Assembly: GCF_927312905.1 (NCBI RefSeq)
Contig: NZ_CAKMHQ010000053.1
Span: forward strand, 1-58,805
Origin: Candidatus Nitrotoga sp. 1052
GTDB lineage: Bacteria; Pseudomonadota; Gammaproteobacteria; Burkholderiales; Gallionellaceae
Reading direction: 5' to 3'
Length of the DNA: 58,805 nucleotides
The notes under the pieces were generated by a model. The model did not search any database. It saw only the letters and a list, made by a program, of their open reading frames with translations, and was not told where the DNA came from. Shown piece after piece: positions 2,570 through 44,766 of the stretch. Within the stretch, counting starts at the first letter, position 1, and each line of letters opens with the position of its first letter. A program made the translations under genes and the position numbers.

Positions 2570-2617
2570 AGCCGCTAAAAGAGGATTGCTTTCAACCGTC
2601 TTCTTCGGCTTCTCCTC

Positions 2618-2817
2618 ATTGCACTCACCAGCGTGTTGAAGGCCGATTTGGAACGCTACGCCGCGCTGCATGCTCAGACCTTCGGCGGCCGATTGATGCC
2701 GCGACGCTGATCCCGCACATGCTTGAAGCGTTCATGGCGCAGGATCGGGGGTTTAAGCGAGCAGCGCTACTGCGTACCGCCGCTACGCAAAGAAATGAAA
2801 AAACCGCCCTTGGTTGA
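2618..2817 (+). pseudogene. DUF2274-type ICE gene remnant, frameshifted
   Basis: One frame reads VLKADLERYAALHAQTFGG (about 2633-2689). The adjacent frame continues IDAATLIPHMLEAFMAQDRG (about 2694-2753). Together they match the body of DUF2274 proteins, small proteins encoded at the end of trb conjugation clusters in Tn4371-type integrative elements. A frameshift near 2690 separates the halves, and the N-terminus is absent. This is a scar of a former integrative conjugative element next to a tRNA gene. The family call is from memory of the motif. Confidence 0.6.
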
Positions 2818-2827
2818 ACAAGGACGG
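2798..2827 (-). terminator. Rho-independent terminator of tRNA-Leu
   Basis: On the minus strand, CCGTCCTTG (2827-2819) pairs with CAAGGGCGG (2812-2804) over nine base pairs with a 6-base loop. Six Ts follow at 2803-2798. It starts 10 bases after the CCA end of the tRNA. Confidence 0.85.
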
Positions 2828-2837
2828 CTCTCCAAAT

Positions 2838-3158
2838 TGGTGCCCGAGGCCGGAATTGAACCGGCACGACCCTTTCGAGTCGAGGGATTTTCTTACCACT
2901 TCGGCTTTCGCCGCCAGCGCGAACGCAGTTCGTGGTCTGGAGCACGCCTTCACCATAGCCTTGCGGCCGTAGGTGCCCGCCGTCTGCTCTCTACACCTTC
3001 CCTTGAATCTTTCGATCCGGGGCTTGGCTCGGTGTTGGCTCGGATGCTTGCAGCATCCAGGGCTTTCGCCGAATTTGACGGGCTTCACCTCCAGGGTTTC
3101 CCTTGGAGGGCTCAAATTGCTTTAAGTCCCTTGTGTCTACCAATTTCACCACTCGGGC
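2838..3158 (-). tRNA. tRNA-Leu(UAA) interrupted by a group I intron
   Basis: Exon 1 (3158-3124, 35 nt) begins GCCCGAGTGG, carries the D-arm with TTGGTAGAC, and ends in the anticodon loop at CTT. Exon 2 (2891-2838, 54 nt) begins AAAATCCC, contains the long variable arm and a T-arm with GGTTCAATTCC, and ends GGGCACCA with encoded CCA. Joined, they give anticodon stem AGGGA/TCCCT with loop CTTAAAA, anticodon UAA, and a perfect acceptor stem GCCCGAG/CTCGGGC. The 232-nt interruption falls between U34 and A35, the classic position of the cyanobacterial and plastid tRNA-Leu intron. The gene has its own candidate promoter upstream and a terminator downstream. Confidence 0.93.
2892..3123 (-). ncRNA. 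Group I intron (IC3-like) in tRNA-Leu(UAA)
   Basis: This is a self-splicing ribozyme candidate of 232 nt with no ORF. It begins AAAGCAATTTGAGCC, close to the start of the cyanobacterial tRNA-Leu intron. It contains GGGAAACCCT, CCGAGCCAAGCC and GGGAAGGTGTAGAG...AGACGG, which correspond to the conserved P4-P7 core, and it ends in the terminal G at 2892. The exon CUU preceding the 5' splice site can pair with GAG in the internal guide, giving the required U-G wobble. Family assignment rests on these visible core motifs. Splicing activity is inferred. Confidence 0.9.
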
Positions 3159-3350
3159 TAGCTTGGCTCGTTGCCGAACCGATGTTTCGCCTAGCTACGC
3201 TAGGCTTGTTTCAACTGTACTCCTCTACTGGCCCCACATGACACCTAGCAGCCAGAGGACTGTTGGTGCCATTTGCACTAAAGCCCGGGAAACCCGCGCC
3301 ATTTCAAGCTATGCACCTACATCCCTGATGAAAAAAAACTTGACAAAGGA
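3159..3350 (-). other. Structured spacer between the tRNA-Leu half and the intact tRNA-Leu
   Basis: There is no coding potential. The minus strand is rich in short hairpins: CCTAGC-GTA-GCTAGG (about 3186-3205), GGTTCG-GCAA-CGAGCC (about 3165-3180, GNRA-like loop) and CCTCTGGC/GCCAG-AGAGG. They could belong to a leader of the tRNA transcript or be relics of a lost RNA element. Confidence 0.35.
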
Positions 3351-3391
3351 GATTTTAAGTCCGTTGTGTCTACCAATTTCACCACCCGGGC
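3351..3391 (-). pseudogene. Intron-less 5' half of a tRNA-Leu(UAA)
   Basis: Thirty-eight bases starting at 3391 match exon 1 of the intact tRNA-Leu plus the first anticodon-loop bases, with only about two differences. The sequence goes directly CTT-AAAATC, so it lacks the intron. It then diverges: no variable arm, T-arm or CCA follows. The 3' side of the anticodon stem (TCTCC) no longer pairs properly with ACGGA. It lies about 190 bp upstream of the intact gene, in the same orientation, and is best read as a broken duplicate. Confidence 0.75.
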
Positions 3392-3445
3392 GAGATAAAG
3401 CAAGTTTGAAATGAGTGATACCAACAGACTCATTTCATAATGCGC

Positions 3446-3475
3446 ATTATACAGAGATGCCTGTCACGTTAGCAA
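3446..3475 (-). promoter_or_regulatory. Sigma70 promoter candidate for tRNA-Leu
   Basis: On the minus strand, TTGCTA (3475-3470) and a perfect TATAAT (3451-3446) are separated by 18 bases. It faces the tRNA-Leu half and the intron-containing tRNA-Leu. Confidence 0.6.
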
Positions 3476-3669
3476 AAACATCGTGGTTTTCCTCAATCAA
3501 ATCGGATAATTGGTGAGTTAACTTTTGCCGTTTTCGGTCAGTAAAAAATAGATTTGTTCGGTATTGCAGCAAATAAACGGTCCGCTTTTGATTCCTTATC
3601 CTTCTGAGTTACAACGGTAGACTTGCGCAGTTGCTGTAGTTGTTACACGAACAAATATTCTTACGCATC

Positions 3670-3821
3670 TTAATCAGCTATTCCATCCAGCTCATCTGTT
3701 TCATGGCGAGCCAGATACTGTCGGAAGGTTCGCCTGCAAGCACTTGGTAAACGCGTAGCATCTTCCTGTGTAAGTTGTCCTGCCTGTCTATACTGGGCCT
3801 CCTTCAAATATCACTTTTCAT
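3670..3821 (-). pseudogene. N-terminal fragment of a transposase
   Basis: An ATG at 3821 opens MKSDI. After a one-base shift the text continues EAQYRQAGQLTQEDATRL, then CRRTFRQYLARHE, and stops at 3670-3672. This is the helix-turn-helix start of an ISNCY/IS1202-like or related transposase. No catalytic part is present. It is too damaged to be expressed and counts as part of the insertion scar between tRNA genes. Subfamily is uncertain. Confidence 0.5.
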
Positions 3822-4696: not shown

Positions 4697-5389
4697 ATGA
4701 ATTTTAATGAGCGAATTCCAGCGATTTGCTGCCTCGGCCCGATTGCCCCGCTTATATGCCCTGTTGGACGAAGCCGCTACGCGGAGGATGCAGTTTTGAC
4801 GGGCCGAAGTCAAAATATAACCTCACCCCTCTCGCGAGGGACCGGCACGGCAAGTACCCATAATAGCCAGCACTTTAATGCCGTGCTGGATCCGGCCAAC
4901 GCATGCCGGGAGGTCTATGCCGATAAGGGCTACCCCAATGCTGCGCGGGAAGCACAATTGAAAGAAGCTGGGTGCCGCAACCGCATTCAGCGCAAAGGGG
5001 TGCGCAACAATCTCCTTTTGGCACGGCAGGAAATGCGGAACAAGCGCATTGCCAAAATTTGTGCCCGGGTCTAGCACATCTTAGCCGGCATTGAACAGAT
5101 GGGCGGCAAGCTGATTCGCACTATCGGTCAGGGCACGGGCGAATTTTGTCATGACCATGATGGCGGCCAGCTACAACCTTAAGCGTTGGTTTATCTCAAG
5201 CGGGCTGGAATTGAGGCCTTCTGACGTTCGCAGCAGGCAGAATTTGCTTAAAATATGGACAATTCAAGGTAAAAATGGGTGGAACTGCGCAAAAAGATTC
5301 AATCCATCGAAGAATATGAACGCGGGTTTGGCCGCGTTCATAAAGTTCAGGCCGGAAGGTTTGAAAGCTACGGGTTTTAGAGGTGCCCT
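4697..5389 (+). mobile_element. IS5-family transposase remnant with right end
   Basis: In pieces the plus strand reads HFNAVLDPANACREVYADKG, EQMGGKLIRTIGQ, MTMMAASYNLKRW and YLKRAGIEAF. These are the C-terminal half of an IS5-group DDE transposase. A stop codon at 5072-5074 replaces the Glu of the RVEH segment, and frameshifts occur near 5145 and 5194. Non-coding DNA follows to TTTTAGAGGTGCCCT at 5375-5389, which is the right terminal repeat. A nearly identical end in opposite orientation occurs alone at 31503-31517. The element lacks its 5' half and is dead. Confidence 0.75.
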
Positions 5390-41801: not shown

Positions 41802-41967
41802 AATGCTTCTTCCGCTCCCTTCGTATTTATTGCTTCAGTGGTATCACCAAAGGCTCTTAGTTCTTTATTTCCGCGCAATACATCAGTGGACGTAACTTAT
41901 GTATCTTTCAATCGATAAGTATTGATGACGCTCGTCTGCGCGGGAATGACGATAGAGGTAATAAGCG

Positions 41968-44766
41968 TTGAACCCGATACCGCAAAGTAATACATCAACC
42001 GCCGCTGTTTTTTTTGATTCTGTCGCACGCGTCATTCTGACGCAGCACTCTCACGAAATACCTGATCTGCGCCGTGCCAGGGTATTGTTGCCCAATTACC
42101 ATGTGTCACAACCATTGGCGCAAAGCTTGGCACGTGTAGCCAACTTGCCTGCGATTTTATTGCCGCAGATGGTCACGCTCAATGATTGGGTTCAGTCCGT
42201 TCCCCTCGCACTATCTGTTATTCCCGACACTTGCCGTATCACCACTTTGTATCAGGCACTGCGTGTGCGGCGTTGGTTTGCCGATGCTGATCTATGGAGC
42301 ATCGCGCACGAACTGTTGATTTTGCTGGATGAGCTGACACAAAATCATGTCACGCTGCCACAAAATGCCGAAGATTTTCTATCGCAATTGGAACAAGGGT
42401 ATCAGTCCAAGCGTGGCATCGCCATGCAGTTCGAAGCACGCGTAGTGTATGAGCTATGGTATGCGATGAATAATAGCGGCGAATTCGATACCGCACGCGC
42501 TTATCAGCAAAGTTTGGCACAACTCGCGCAGCAAGCTGAGTTACCACTGTATGTGTTATTGACTTCCGCACTTGCTGCGACTGAAGCCCGATTCCTGGAG
42601 GCATATCATAAACGCGCGCCGGTGATGATTATTGATTTGCGCGAGTTGACATCACGACAGCCAGAATGTGCAGCGATGCGCATCATCGCCTCTAGCCGAC
42701 CTCGCTTTTCTGACCCTATTCCAACGGAAAATGAGAGAGAGGTGCACGATAACTTGCGCACGCAGGAGAGAGTGGAGGAGATGGATGCTCTGTCATTGCG
42801 CGAGCAAGCCAATCACCTGCAAAAACATTTCCCTCACGCTGCATTGGGACAACGCCTGCGTTTTTTTGGCGCTCATGGTTTGGAACAAGAAGCGCGTGCT
42901 ACCGAGGTACAGATACGGCGCTGGTTGCTTGCGGGTAAGAAGAATATAGCCATCGTCGCACAAGACCGCATAGTAGCAAGGCGTATGCGTGCTTTGCTGG
43001 AGCGCGCTGGTGTACTGGTATGCGACGAAACAGGCTGGAAGTTCTCCACGTTATCCGTAAGCACGGTGTTAATGCGCTGGCTGGATGCGCTGCAAAGTGA
43101 TTTCTACTATCAGGATTTACTCGACCTGCTCAAATCGCCATTCATTTTTGCCGATCAAGCCGTGTGCGAGCGTAAGCAGACGGTGCATCAGCTTGAACAA
43201 CTGGTGCGCAAGCATGGTGTGGTGGCGCATCTTGATACAGTTCTCGATTTGACGCAGGGTAATGTTGAGATGCGGATGGCACTGATACGGTTGCGTCAGG
43301 CGGCGGAGGTTTTGCATAAAAAAAACGATACGCTGTCCGGCTGGCTATGCGCGCTTTACGCCAGCCTGGAGATTCTCGGCATAGTGCAGGGGCTGAAGAT
43401 GGATTATGCCGGTATACAGTTGCTGCAGGCGCTGCAAAACTGGCAGCGTGAACTGCATGTCGATGCCACGCGCGTCAGCCTGACCGAGTGGCGGCATTGG
43501 TTGGCGCAACAACTCGATGAGCACACCTTCCTTGATTTAACGATCGACAGCCCGGTTTTACTCACCCATCTTGCCGCAACGCGCTGGCGCAGCTTTGATG
43601 CAGTGTTGATGCTTGGTTGTGATGCTGCACATCTGCCGGGCACTGACAACAGCGGACGGTGGTTCAATGATGCGGTGCGCACCACACTTGGCTTGCCAAC
43701 GCGTGAAGTGTATTTGGCACAGCAGCGCGATGACTTACTGGCATTGCTCGCCATGAATGACACGATGTTGGTTACTTGGCAAGCCAGCAAAAGCGGCGAA
43801 GCAAATCTGTTAAGCCCGTGTTTTGAAATGCTGCGTGCCCTGCACGAGTTGGCTTATGGCGACGATCTAACGATAAAGCAGGGGGAATGGGATAAGATGC
43901 TTGAAAGTACGCAAGTGCGCAGTGCAGAGTTTTCACTGCCACCGGCGGCTGCAATGCCTGCGCCAGTCGCGCTGCAAGGCCTTATTCCGAAACGTATTTC
44001 AGCTAGCGGCTATAACAGTCTGGTGGCTTGTCCCTATCAATTTTATGCCCGCCATATTTTGCACCTCAATGAAATGGATGAGGTGCGTGAAGACGTGGAG
44101 AAACGCGATTATGGTGAATGGGTGCATGACATTTTGCGACGCTTCCATGAGAAATATCAGGTGCTGGGCAATCATCTGCGCGCTGATCTGGATGCGGCCC
44201 TGCGGCGCATCAGTGTCGAGATTTTTGCGCCCGCTGTGCAACGCGATTATTTAGCGCGTGCCTGGCTGTTGCGTTGGCAGCAAGCAATCCCCGAATATCT
44301 GGAGACACAGTTAAAAAATGAAGCGGAAGGTTGGCAATATCAAAATGGAGAAGTGCCGTTTGAATTGCCATTGACCGCTGATTTGCTTATGCATGGACGG
44401 TTAGATCGTGTAGATGTGCTGGCCAAGGGGGGTAGCGCAGTGCGCGTGCTAGATTACAAGATGATGGATGCGGCCAGGCTACGCAATAAGCTCAAAGAAG
44501 CAGGCGAGGACGTTCAACTGGCTTGCTATGCCTACGTGTATGAGGCTGATGAAGCCGCATTTATCAGTATCGAAAAAGACAAGGTGATTGCAGTTGCACC
44601 ACCACAGGACGTGGCTGAACTGGCGCAGGCAAATATCGCACGTCTGTTGGAAGTGTTTGCACAGATGCGCAGTGGTGCAGCATTGCCCGCGCATGGGGCT
44701 GAAGAGGCATGCCAGTATTGCGAGATGCGCGGGCTATGCCGGAAATCAGAATGGAATGAGCGCTAA
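41968..44766 (+). CDS. PD-(D/E)XK nuclease, AddB-like subunit
   Basis: This encodes 932 residues starting at TTG (41968). It resembles the AddB subunit of AddAB helicase-nuclease complexes, which process double-strand breaks for recombination. An inactive helicase-like N-terminal body leads to a C-terminal nuclease: SASGYNSLVACPYQFYARH, then GRLDRVDV...VLDYKM (Asp and Lys of the PD-D/E-XK motif). The C-terminal CQYCEMRGLCRK supplies the iron-sulfur cysteines. It lies 31 bp upstream of addA. Walker A is not obvious near the N-terminus. Confidence 0.88.
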   Translation: MNPIPQSNTSTAAVFFDSVARVILTQHSHEIPDLRRARVLLPNYHVSQPLAQSLARVANLPAILLPQMVTLNDWVQSVPLALSVIPDTCRITTLYQALRVRRWFADADLWSIAHELLILLDELTQNHVTLPQNAEDFLSQLEQGYQSKRGIAMQFEARVVYELWYAMNNSGEFDTARAYQQSLAQLAQQAELPLYVLLTSALAATEARFLEAYHKRAPVMIIDLRELTSRQPECAAMRIIASSRPRFSDPIPTENEREVHDNLRTQERVEEMDALSLREQANHLQKHFPHAALGQRLRFFGAHGLEQEARATEVQIRRWLLAGKKNIAIVAQDRIVARRMRALLERAGVLVCDETGWKFSTLSVSTVLMRWLDALQSDFYYQDLLDLLKSPFIFADQAVCERKQTVHQLEQLVRKHGVVAHLDTVLDLTQGNVEMRMALIRLRQAAEVLHKKNDTLSGWLCALYASLEILGIVQGLKMDYAGIQLLQALQNWQRELHVDATRVSLTEWRHWLAQQLDEHTFLDLTIDSPVLLTHLAATRWRSFDAVLMLGCDAAHLPGTDNSGRWFNDAVRTTLGLPTREVYLAQQRDDLLALLAMNDTMLVTWQASKSGEANLLSPCFEMLRALHELAYGDDLTIKQGEWDKMLESTQVRSAEFSLPPAAAMPAPVALQGLIPKRISASGYNSLVACPYQFYARHILHLNEMDEVREDVEKRDYGEWVHDILRRFHEKYQVLGNHLRADLDAALRRISVEIFAPAVQRDYLARAWLLRWQQAIPEYLETQLKNEAEGWQYQNGEVPFELPLTADLLMHGRLDRVDVLAKGGSAVRVLDYKMMDAARLRNKLKEAGEDVQLACYAYVYEADEAAFISIEKDKVIAVAPPQDVAELAQANIARLLEVFAQMRSGAALPAHGAEEACQYCEMRGLCRKSEWNER

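Follow-up and report, generated by a model that had tools for sequence, protein, structure and literature searches.

The window analysed here is the whole of contig NZ_CAKMHQ010000053.1 of Candidatus Nitrotoga sp. 1052, 58,805 nucleotides (nt) long, and the gene in question is a transfer RNA gene, tRNA-Leu(UAA), which is split by a group I intron. An integrated conjugative element has very probably broken the host's own tRNA-Leu(UAA) gene and supplies this intron-split gene as a replacement. The element is in all likelihood a Tn4371-type integrative and conjugative element (ICE) of the ICEKKS102Tn4677 branch, an assignment made from the letters of the attachment site (att) and from published descriptions. 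To read UUA codons, the cell would probably need a ribozyme that the element supplies. The insertion, the splitting of the host gene, the replacement gene and the fold of the intron can all be read from the sequence.

The broken host gene and its replacement

The features of the locus, in window coordinates, are as follows:
3446 to 3475, minus strand: promoter-like site TTGCTA-18-TATAAT before the host tRNA-Leu(UAA), reading towards the element; a consensus match only (10/12)
3351 to 3391, minus strand: remnant of the host tRNA-Leu(UAA), its nucleotides 1-41, with the break in the anticodon arm; genus synteny stops here
3351 to 3359, minus strand: core of the left attachment site (attL), CTTAAAATC (reverse complement GATTTTAAG); the 9-nt overlap of the flanks, with the letters of the published ICEKKS102Tn4677 att
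3159 to 3350, minus strand: 192-nt leader from attL to the intron-split tRNA, forming the element's left end; elements in other genera have a similar leader, whereas the similarity does not extend to the host side of the broken tRNA
3158 to 2838, minus strand: intron-split tRNA-Leu(UAA) gene, exons and intron, 321 nt
3124 to 3158, minus strand: 5′ exon of the element's tRNA-Leu(UAA), 35 nt, last letters CTT
2892 to 3123, minus strand: group I intron of 232 nt that separates U34 from A35 (RF00028, E 2.9e-6; P3-P9 covariation)
2838 to 2891, minus strand: 3′ exon of the element's tRNA-Leu(UAA), 54 nt, AAAATCC...CACCA, with CCA encoded; the joined exons are read as tRNA-Leu(taa)
2798 to 2833, minus strand: intrinsic-terminator-like hairpin directly after the tRNA, a 15-pair stem and a T run; a consensus match only
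2618 to 3350, no strand assigned: element stretch common to the window and G015, a second genome of the genus; part of a 785-column match, 96% identical, ending at 2618

The window belongs to genome G000, in which it is contig C53; C63 is a second contig of the same genome. The tRNA-Leu(UAA) gene is intact and intronless in all seven genus relatives examined, and in six of them it stands divergent from a cluster of tRNA-Gly, -Cys and -Pro genes; among genus members with any match, 14 of 16 have exon-only matches. Synteny between the window and the genus runs from the tRNA cluster into the tRNA and ends after nucleotide 41, at 3351. The rest of the host tRNA, from nucleotide 33 onward, lies with the native downstream flank at C63:27163 in G000 and at C12:20161 in G015. 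When the empty sites of G001, G003, G012 and G017 are set against the flanks of G000 and G015, the left block extends to nucleotide 41 and the right block begins at nucleotide 33 in 8/8 comparisons, and in all eight the two blocks overlap by the 9 nt CTTAAAATC. The displaced 3′ part matches the 5′ part of its own host; by eye, 7/7 acceptor-stem pairs form in G000, G015, Stutzerimonas KOS6 and Eoetvoesiella, and 6/7 in Rhodanobacter G152. ARAGORN finds no tRNA in the truncated half at 3351..3391.

The initial annotation had taken the intron to lie in the host's own tRNA-Leu gene, overlooking both the attachment site and, at 3391-3351, the remnant of the native copy. Because the empty-site comparison shows an insertion, this is rejected: the host copy is intronless and broken, that of the relatives is intact, and the intron-split gene, judged by these comparisons, is one that was brought in. 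The gene itself had been placed exactly, at 2838-3158, with its strand (minus) unstated, and its description holds: the exon and intron boundaries are those of a 232-nt intron between U34 and A35, the intact exons fold when joined as a tRNA-Leu(UAA) with encoded CCA, and the last base of the intron, on the 2892 side, is G. The intron begins AAAGCAATTT and finishes AAGTGGTAAG. ARAGORN makes no tRNA call on the interrupted gene; given the joined exons, it returns tRNA-Leu(taa).

The probable conjugative element and its mode of integration

The 9-bp sequence GATTTTAAG, which the window element has in tRNA-Leu, is the att repeat of ICEKKS102Tn4677 and ICEbphKF708, two elements of the Tn4371 family (PMC9960961, PMC11448139, PMC6563109). 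As described in the available text of these sources, their branch resembles the window element in the 9-bp att, in tRNA-Leu as the main target, in the integrase and in the trb genes; the target tRNA-Leu neighbours a Gly-tRNA gene, as it does here, and the published size is 61.8 kb against ~68 kb for the element of Stutzerimonas stutzeri KOS6. The same available text lacks the word ‘intron’ in PMC11448139 and PMC6563109 and the term ‘group I intron’ in PMC9960961. The KOS6 element lies on one contig: the stretch that starts at the intron tRNA carries TrbI, CagX/TrbG, TrbE and a coupling protein, and the far end a tyrosine integrase. An integrase at one end and trb genes at the other are also found in G015, on two contigs, with TrbI beside attL and the integrase beside the right attachment site (attR). 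Between attL and the integrase, Eoetvoesiella has ~51 kb and Rhodanobacter G152 ~14 kb. Integrase and attR are present in three of the five named genomes with this attL (G149, G150 and G152), and TrbI in three of the six loci searched (L034, L158 and L192).

The tRNA genes of G000 and G015 are 98% identical. Only ~160 bp of the integrase gene was found in G000, beside attR; with most of this gene gone, the element there is probably immobile or fixed, kept by its tRNA. Fragments of transposase or integrase-core type (HTH_21, rve) lie at 373-1290 of the window, near the contig start; they stand about where G015 has trbI, on this side of the tRNA, so that the element is probably disrupted near the contig start.

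The same layout, with the host half followed by a leader of 160-195 nt and then the intron-split tRNA on the same strand, recurs in G000, G015, two Rhodanobacter, Stutzerimonas stutzeri KOS6, a Nitrosomonadales bacterium and Eoetvoesiella caeni. Across these seven loci the hosts differ to the left of the broken tRNA and the element is alike to the right of the core. A search with the attL signature, which makes no use of intron letters, gave four matches in 399 genomes of the order (G000, G286, G438 and G440), all four preceded by the host half and followed by the intron tRNA. In the class sample it matched in 3/369, namely the own genome and two chance matches, G500 and G775, which have no adjoining tRNA and were rejected as attL sites. 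When the insertions from this search and from the intron search are pooled, an intron-split tRNA-Leu(UAA) lies 160-195 nt inside in 10/10, in several families. Of the 149 genomes in the relatives sample, nine, the own genome among them, hold the almost complete unit, and this recurrence excludes a chance origin.

A Tn4371-type ICE would integrate, by its tyrosine recombinase, in the anticodon arm of the host tRNA-Leu(UAA) at the 9-bp core CTTAAAATC. Integration would split the host gene, nucleotides 1-41 remaining at attL and the remainder moving to attR. Since a 9-bp core is too short to rebuild the gene, the element must bring its own tRNA; it would leave the host gene unrebuilt and supply a whole tRNA-Leu(UAA), which has the orientation of the broken gene and lies 192 nt in from the element's left end. 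The group I intron between U34 and A35 would splice itself out, yielding a tRNA for UUA, and the cell would then depend on an element-borne ribozyme to read this codon. No second tRNA-Leu(UAA) was found in G000 by pattern or BLAST, which is suggestive of a need for the element's copy in survival. An intact intronless tRNA-Leu(UAA) was likewise not found, with a 5′-half pattern, in G015 and G149-G153. Transcription may start at the host's old tRNA promoter: a consensus promoter scan of 2600-3700 gives one site only, 84 nt ahead of the broken half (0.8 expected by chance), and G015 has a matching site at an equal distance.

This mode of integration resembles the tRNA-dependent lysogeny of actinobacteriophages, as set out in the available text of PMC10865867, in its short core (~10 bp in the phages), in a host tRNA that is not rebuilt and in the supply of the same isotype. 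In the window the tRNA is broken at a short core without rebuilding, and the element carries a tRNA-Leu(UAA), the same isotype. The differences are that a conjugative element takes the place of the phage, that the tRNA in the window is intron-split and that the host is a member of the Proteobacteria. No phage structural family was found in the 20 open reading frames (ORFs) scanned, from several elements, and conjugation genes are present in KOS6 and G015. On these grounds the window element works like tRNA-dependent lysogeny yet is no member of it.

Several observations weigh against this account. Integrase and attR were not found in the other two of the five named genomes (G151 and G153), nor TrbI in the other three of the six loci (L141, L182 and L166, the last of which stops ~500 bp beyond the tRNA), and the ends of the G000 element lie on separate contigs, C53 and C63. 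The ten insertions belong to one element family and hence are not ten independent events. The assemblies are drafts, and an intronless tRNA-Leu(UAA) may sit in a gap. A promoter-like site ahead of the host half occurs in 2/10 insertions, those of G000 and G015 in one genus; among the other eight, G438 has such a site in the leader and seven have none by consensus, and promoter capture as a general feature is not borne out. Lastly, an element in G006 (G006:C1:2122484 and 2203969) has a right end like that of G015, with an integrase-attR stretch 95% identical and one stop inside the integrase, and at its left, 81 kb away, an intact intronless tRNA-Leu(UAA). The intron copy is therefore not obligatory for the element, and that of G006 is either a classical or a secondarily repaired version. 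In genome G145 an intron-split tRNA-Leu(UAA) coexists with an intact intronless one (on C178 and C220).

Fold and relatives of the intron

The insert looks like a group I intron, and self-splicing is predicted for it. A covariance-model search with Rfam Intron_gpI finds no match in the window at the gathering score (50 bits); with permissive filters, the insert matches the full model (RF00028, model positions 1-253) at 32.8 bits and E 2.9e-6, below the cutoff. In a search of the whole genome (3.23 Mb) it is the sole match at E ≤ 0.001, with E 1.7e-6. All eight of the relatives' introns tested also fall under the cutoff, at 29-48 bits, so the low score is common in this intron family. The fold was assessed on alignment A1, made of 28 introns hand-picked from two clades of the 83 parsed, with a structure hand-drawn on the alignment itself (P3, P4, P5, P5a, P6, P7, P8 and P9). 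Pairing is seen in 98.2% of 896 cells, and both sides have changed in 18/32 pairs. In 500 shuffles none of the observed values was attained, and sliding the structure by 1-3 columns lowers the pairing to 23-43%. The helices supported by covariation in these 28 sequences include the P3/P7 pseudoknot; in P7, two pairs that are G-C and C-G in 18 rows appear as C-G and U-A in the other 10. P1 and P2 were kept out of the count because the two clades are offset by one column there. By inspection, GGACUU at the 5′ splice site of the window intron faces GAGCCC, with a U-G pair at the site and one internal A-C mismatch; in the relatives found by pattern, the splice-site letters are partly imposed by the search or the parsing. 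On this evidence from the alignment, the intron fold is under selection, and the initial reading of the insert as a group I intron is borne out by both the Rfam match and the covariation from P3 to P9.

A tree was built from 81 introns over 228 columns and midpoint-rooted, with a single cyanobacterium (L151); rows L183 and L130 were dropped as the same records as L006 and L008, and 2 of the 85 candidates stayed unparsed (L125, cut by the locus end, and L171, without a tRNA). The window intron falls in a clade of six rows (100/85) with those of G015, the Nitrosomonadales bacterium, KOS6 and both Rhodanobacter. Around it lies an 18-row clade (100/98), which adds Eoetvoesiella, the viral contig L283 and tRNAs of Azonexus, Ottowia and Lautropia; L151 is placed in the opposite half of the tree. 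The distances from the window intron to those of KOS6 (0.13) and Rhodanobacter (0.15-0.16) are consistent with transfer between families.

In isotype, anticodon-loop insertion, group I core and terminal G, the window intron is like that of cyanobacterial and plastid tRNA-Leu(UAA), as generally known and as given in the available text of PMC4033280; it differs in grouping with element-borne introns in a proteobacterial clade. The initial annotation had called it an intron of cyanobacterial type. The tree does not group it with L151, and with one cyanobacterium sampled, a cyanobacterial origin is unsupported. Lateral transfer, which had been raised as a question, was the right one to ask, the nearest introns being on elements of other families. 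A proteobacterial tRNA-Leu intron is indeed present, as had been said; it is less odd than was supposed, introns of tRNA-Leu(UAA) being widespread: both exons surround an intron in 71 of the 80 matches listed from a pattern scan of named loci. By title these loci are mostly Gammaproteobacteria, and mostly Proteobacteria as a whole, with Clostridia, Acidobacteriota, Chloroflexota and one Planctomycete besides. As the scan pattern itself required intron letters, 71/80 gives no frequency.

Some of these relatives have features of their own. Among tRNA-Leu(UAA) introns longer than 400 nt, 11 of 13 hold an ORF that runs antisense to the tRNA and contains the motif ELDHxxGxxxxNxxxNLRLLCPNCHA (L120, L122, L126, L133, L137, L150, L167, L168, L173, L179 and L180); judging by the motif, these encode probable HNH homing endonucleases. 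The viral contig L283 (IMG/VR, 37.5 kb) starts with an intron-split tRNA-Leu(UAA), directly followed by a tyrosine integrase (69-1519). A looser pattern listed 80 viral loci, 24 of them with a tRNA-like 5′ exon; in one, L283, a tyrosine integrase stands beside the intron tRNA. In Methylobacter sp. fen_1212 (L154, about 5200-5350), an intron-split tRNA-Leu(UAA) is closely preceded by a decayed 5′ half that resembles tRNA-Leu and ends at a break after GGGACT; this is perhaps another replacement, with another core.

Possible reasons for an intron in a replacement tRNA

The anticodon loops of tRNAs are the seat of bacterial group I introns and the cut site of many integrases. Intron-split tRNAs were also met on elements unlike that of the window. 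In G133 the parts of the host tRNA-Leu(UAA) are 15.8 kb apart; a tyrosine integrase adjoins the left part and an intron-split tRNA-Leu(UAA), with an intron of another clade than that of the window, adjoins the right part. A Rhodoferax record has the same right end. In G064 the T-loop of tRNA-Ile2(CAU) is occupied by a 29.6-kb insertion, as the empty site in G019 shows, with a 5-bp overlap, GGTTC; its interior holds a tyrosine integrase and an intron-split tRNA-Ile2, which scores 53 bits with Rfam. This tRNA-Ile2 lies behind the broken host copy (L043 9990-10561; G064:C2:769989-770560), and an HNH gene adjoins it. Two tRNA-Ile2 introns belonging to the family score 53 bits, above the Rfam cutoff of 50.

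Gordonia phage Daredevil (L358 2170-2660; NC_048021.1, about 41811-42300) has an attP-like CGGACTTTTAATCCGC; at a distance of 170 bp, next to the integrase, follows an interrupted tRNA-Lys(UUU) gene, and ARAGORN reads the joined exons of this gene as tRNA-Lys(ttt). The insert is called group I from its 76% identity over 106 nt to the window intron (E 1e-12); its Rfam score (15.4 bits, E 0.46) is not significant. Full-length matches to the locus come only from two Daredevil records. According to the available text of Guerrero-Bustamante & Hatfull 2024 (PMC10865867), Daredevil integrates at tRNA-Lys-TTT and leaves the gene unrebuilt; of Daredevil and Mollymur only Mollymur is credited with its own tRNA, a legend gives Daredevil as without tRNA-Ile2-CAT, and the plaques of Daredevil are clear. 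It thus seems that Daredevil, reported without a replacement tRNA, has an intron-split one, as far as its sequence tells; the clear plaques argue that this tRNA may not work.

Among explanations for the intron, about an even chance is given to the element having acquired its tRNA from an intron-bearing host, the intron then spreading along without a role. Of the 71 named loci with both exons (80 matches listed), six have a clear insertion remnant within the stretch examined and L154 a possible one, and most may be resident; G098, possibly a resident copy, falls within the 18-row clade. Against this stand at least four unlike elements with three isotypes, though all intron-tRNA elements except those of the attL survey were found by searching for introns.

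Such a passive spread is at least as likely as a protective role, in which the intron, by splitting the att core CTT|AAAATC in the element's tRNA, would block the element's own integrase and a second element; this second explanation is possible, if somewhat doubtful. In the tRNA-Leu and tRNA-Lys cases the substitute gene should cease to be a target, because the intron splits the integrase core. The intron lies inside the 9-bp core in 10/10 insertions, G133 and Daredevil are further anticodon-loop cases, and a replacement tRNA on a plasmid has been speculated to act as attB for tandem integration (Guerrero-Bustamante & Hatfull, PMC10865867, available text). The element of G064, however, enters at the T-loop of tRNA-Ile2(CAU), where the intron leaves the core unsplit, and the general claim that the intron always splits the att core is rejected by this case; nor does the available text of the phage paper name introns in the replacement tRNAs listed, ‘intron’ occurring once, in a reference title. 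That elements keep group I introns as att-site camouflage of substitute tRNAs, and that this has arisen in ICEs (tRNA-Leu), in the G133/Rhodoferax type and in a phage (tRNA-Lys), is a tentative proposal and slightly more doubtful still. If true, it would give a selective reason for group I introns in bacterial tRNA anticodon loops, and resident intron-bearing tRNAs would be domesticated leftovers of elements or protected genes.

It is improbable that the gene is a mere passenger, its intron not splicing or an unseen intronless tRNA-Leu(UAA) serving the cell. The draft state of the assembly and the clear plaques reported for Daredevil, with its comparable intron-split tRNA-Lys (PMC10865867, available text), would suit this explanation; against it, the exons and the core are kept, no second copy appears by pattern or BLAST, and G000 has lost most of the integrase gene, while its tRNA gene and that of G015 share 98% identity. 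It is highly improbable that an ancient intron of cyanobacterial type descended vertically in the tRNA-Leu(UAA) of the host and was lost in relatives. Some weight is lent to this by the shared insertion position of the cyanobacterial and plastid intron, by the like parsing of cyanobacterial L151 and by the intron copy as the sole tRNA-Leu(UAA) identified in G097, G098, G111 and G117 (one G097 match left untyped), so that resident copies may exist. Against it, the host's intronless copy persists in broken form, the empty-site comparison opposes it for this locus, 14 of the 16 matching genus members are exon-only with all seven examined intact, and the closest introns sit on elements in other families.

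The preferred reading, a conjugative element that broke the host gene and supplies an intron-split one, joins three things described separately: Tn4371-type ICEs, tRNA-dependent integration in phages, and group I introns in tRNA. Each part is known singly; the combination, tRNA-dependent integration of an ICE with an intron-split replacement tRNA, was not found in the literature searched, and no description of an intron-bearing tRNA on an ICE came up in open-licence literature, judged largely by titles and abstracts. The Azoarcus-type introns of tRNA-Ile2(CAU), also present in Acidovorax and Burkholderia, are described without mention of an element in the available text of PMC8450103. Like that of the window, they are group I introns in the anticodon loop of a proteobacterial tRNA, differing in isotype and position; G064 shows one tRNA-Ile2 intron on an element. 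Should the inferred steps hold, a mobile element makes the codon reading of its host ribozyme-dependent, which would explain the fixation of such elements and the spread of tRNA introns between distant bacteria. The occupation of anticodon loops by group I introns becomes a testable question.

Other mobile elements carry similar genes. The uncultured phage LR756511.1 (595 kb; L357 3001-3785) has a tRNA-Leu-like gene with a long intron, seemingly with an HNH ORF by eye. On a conjugative plasmid of Bradyrhizobium sp. ISRA443 (L356 5018-5245), an intron-split tRNA-Leu(UAA) lies ~750 bp from trbI, in convergent orientation, an arrangement like that of the elements above, but its intron is a distant one. 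Plasmid pCTX-M3 (L355 4994-5290; NC_004464.2:61822-62118) holds a complete, unannotated intron-split tRNA-Leu(UAA) one gene from aac(3)-IId. Matches on Enterobacteriaceae plasmids had been candidates for a 5′ exon and intron without the 3′ exon; this was rejected, since the one inspected is a complete gene whose 3′ exon BLAST had left unjoined. Annotation overlooks such genes, as with the tRNA-Lys of Daredevil: at least 80% of the L355 stretch is present in 1257/72,556 plasmid records (mainly of Enterobacteriaceae, with Acinetobacter too) and, unannotated, in 624/5426 closed E. coli genomes.
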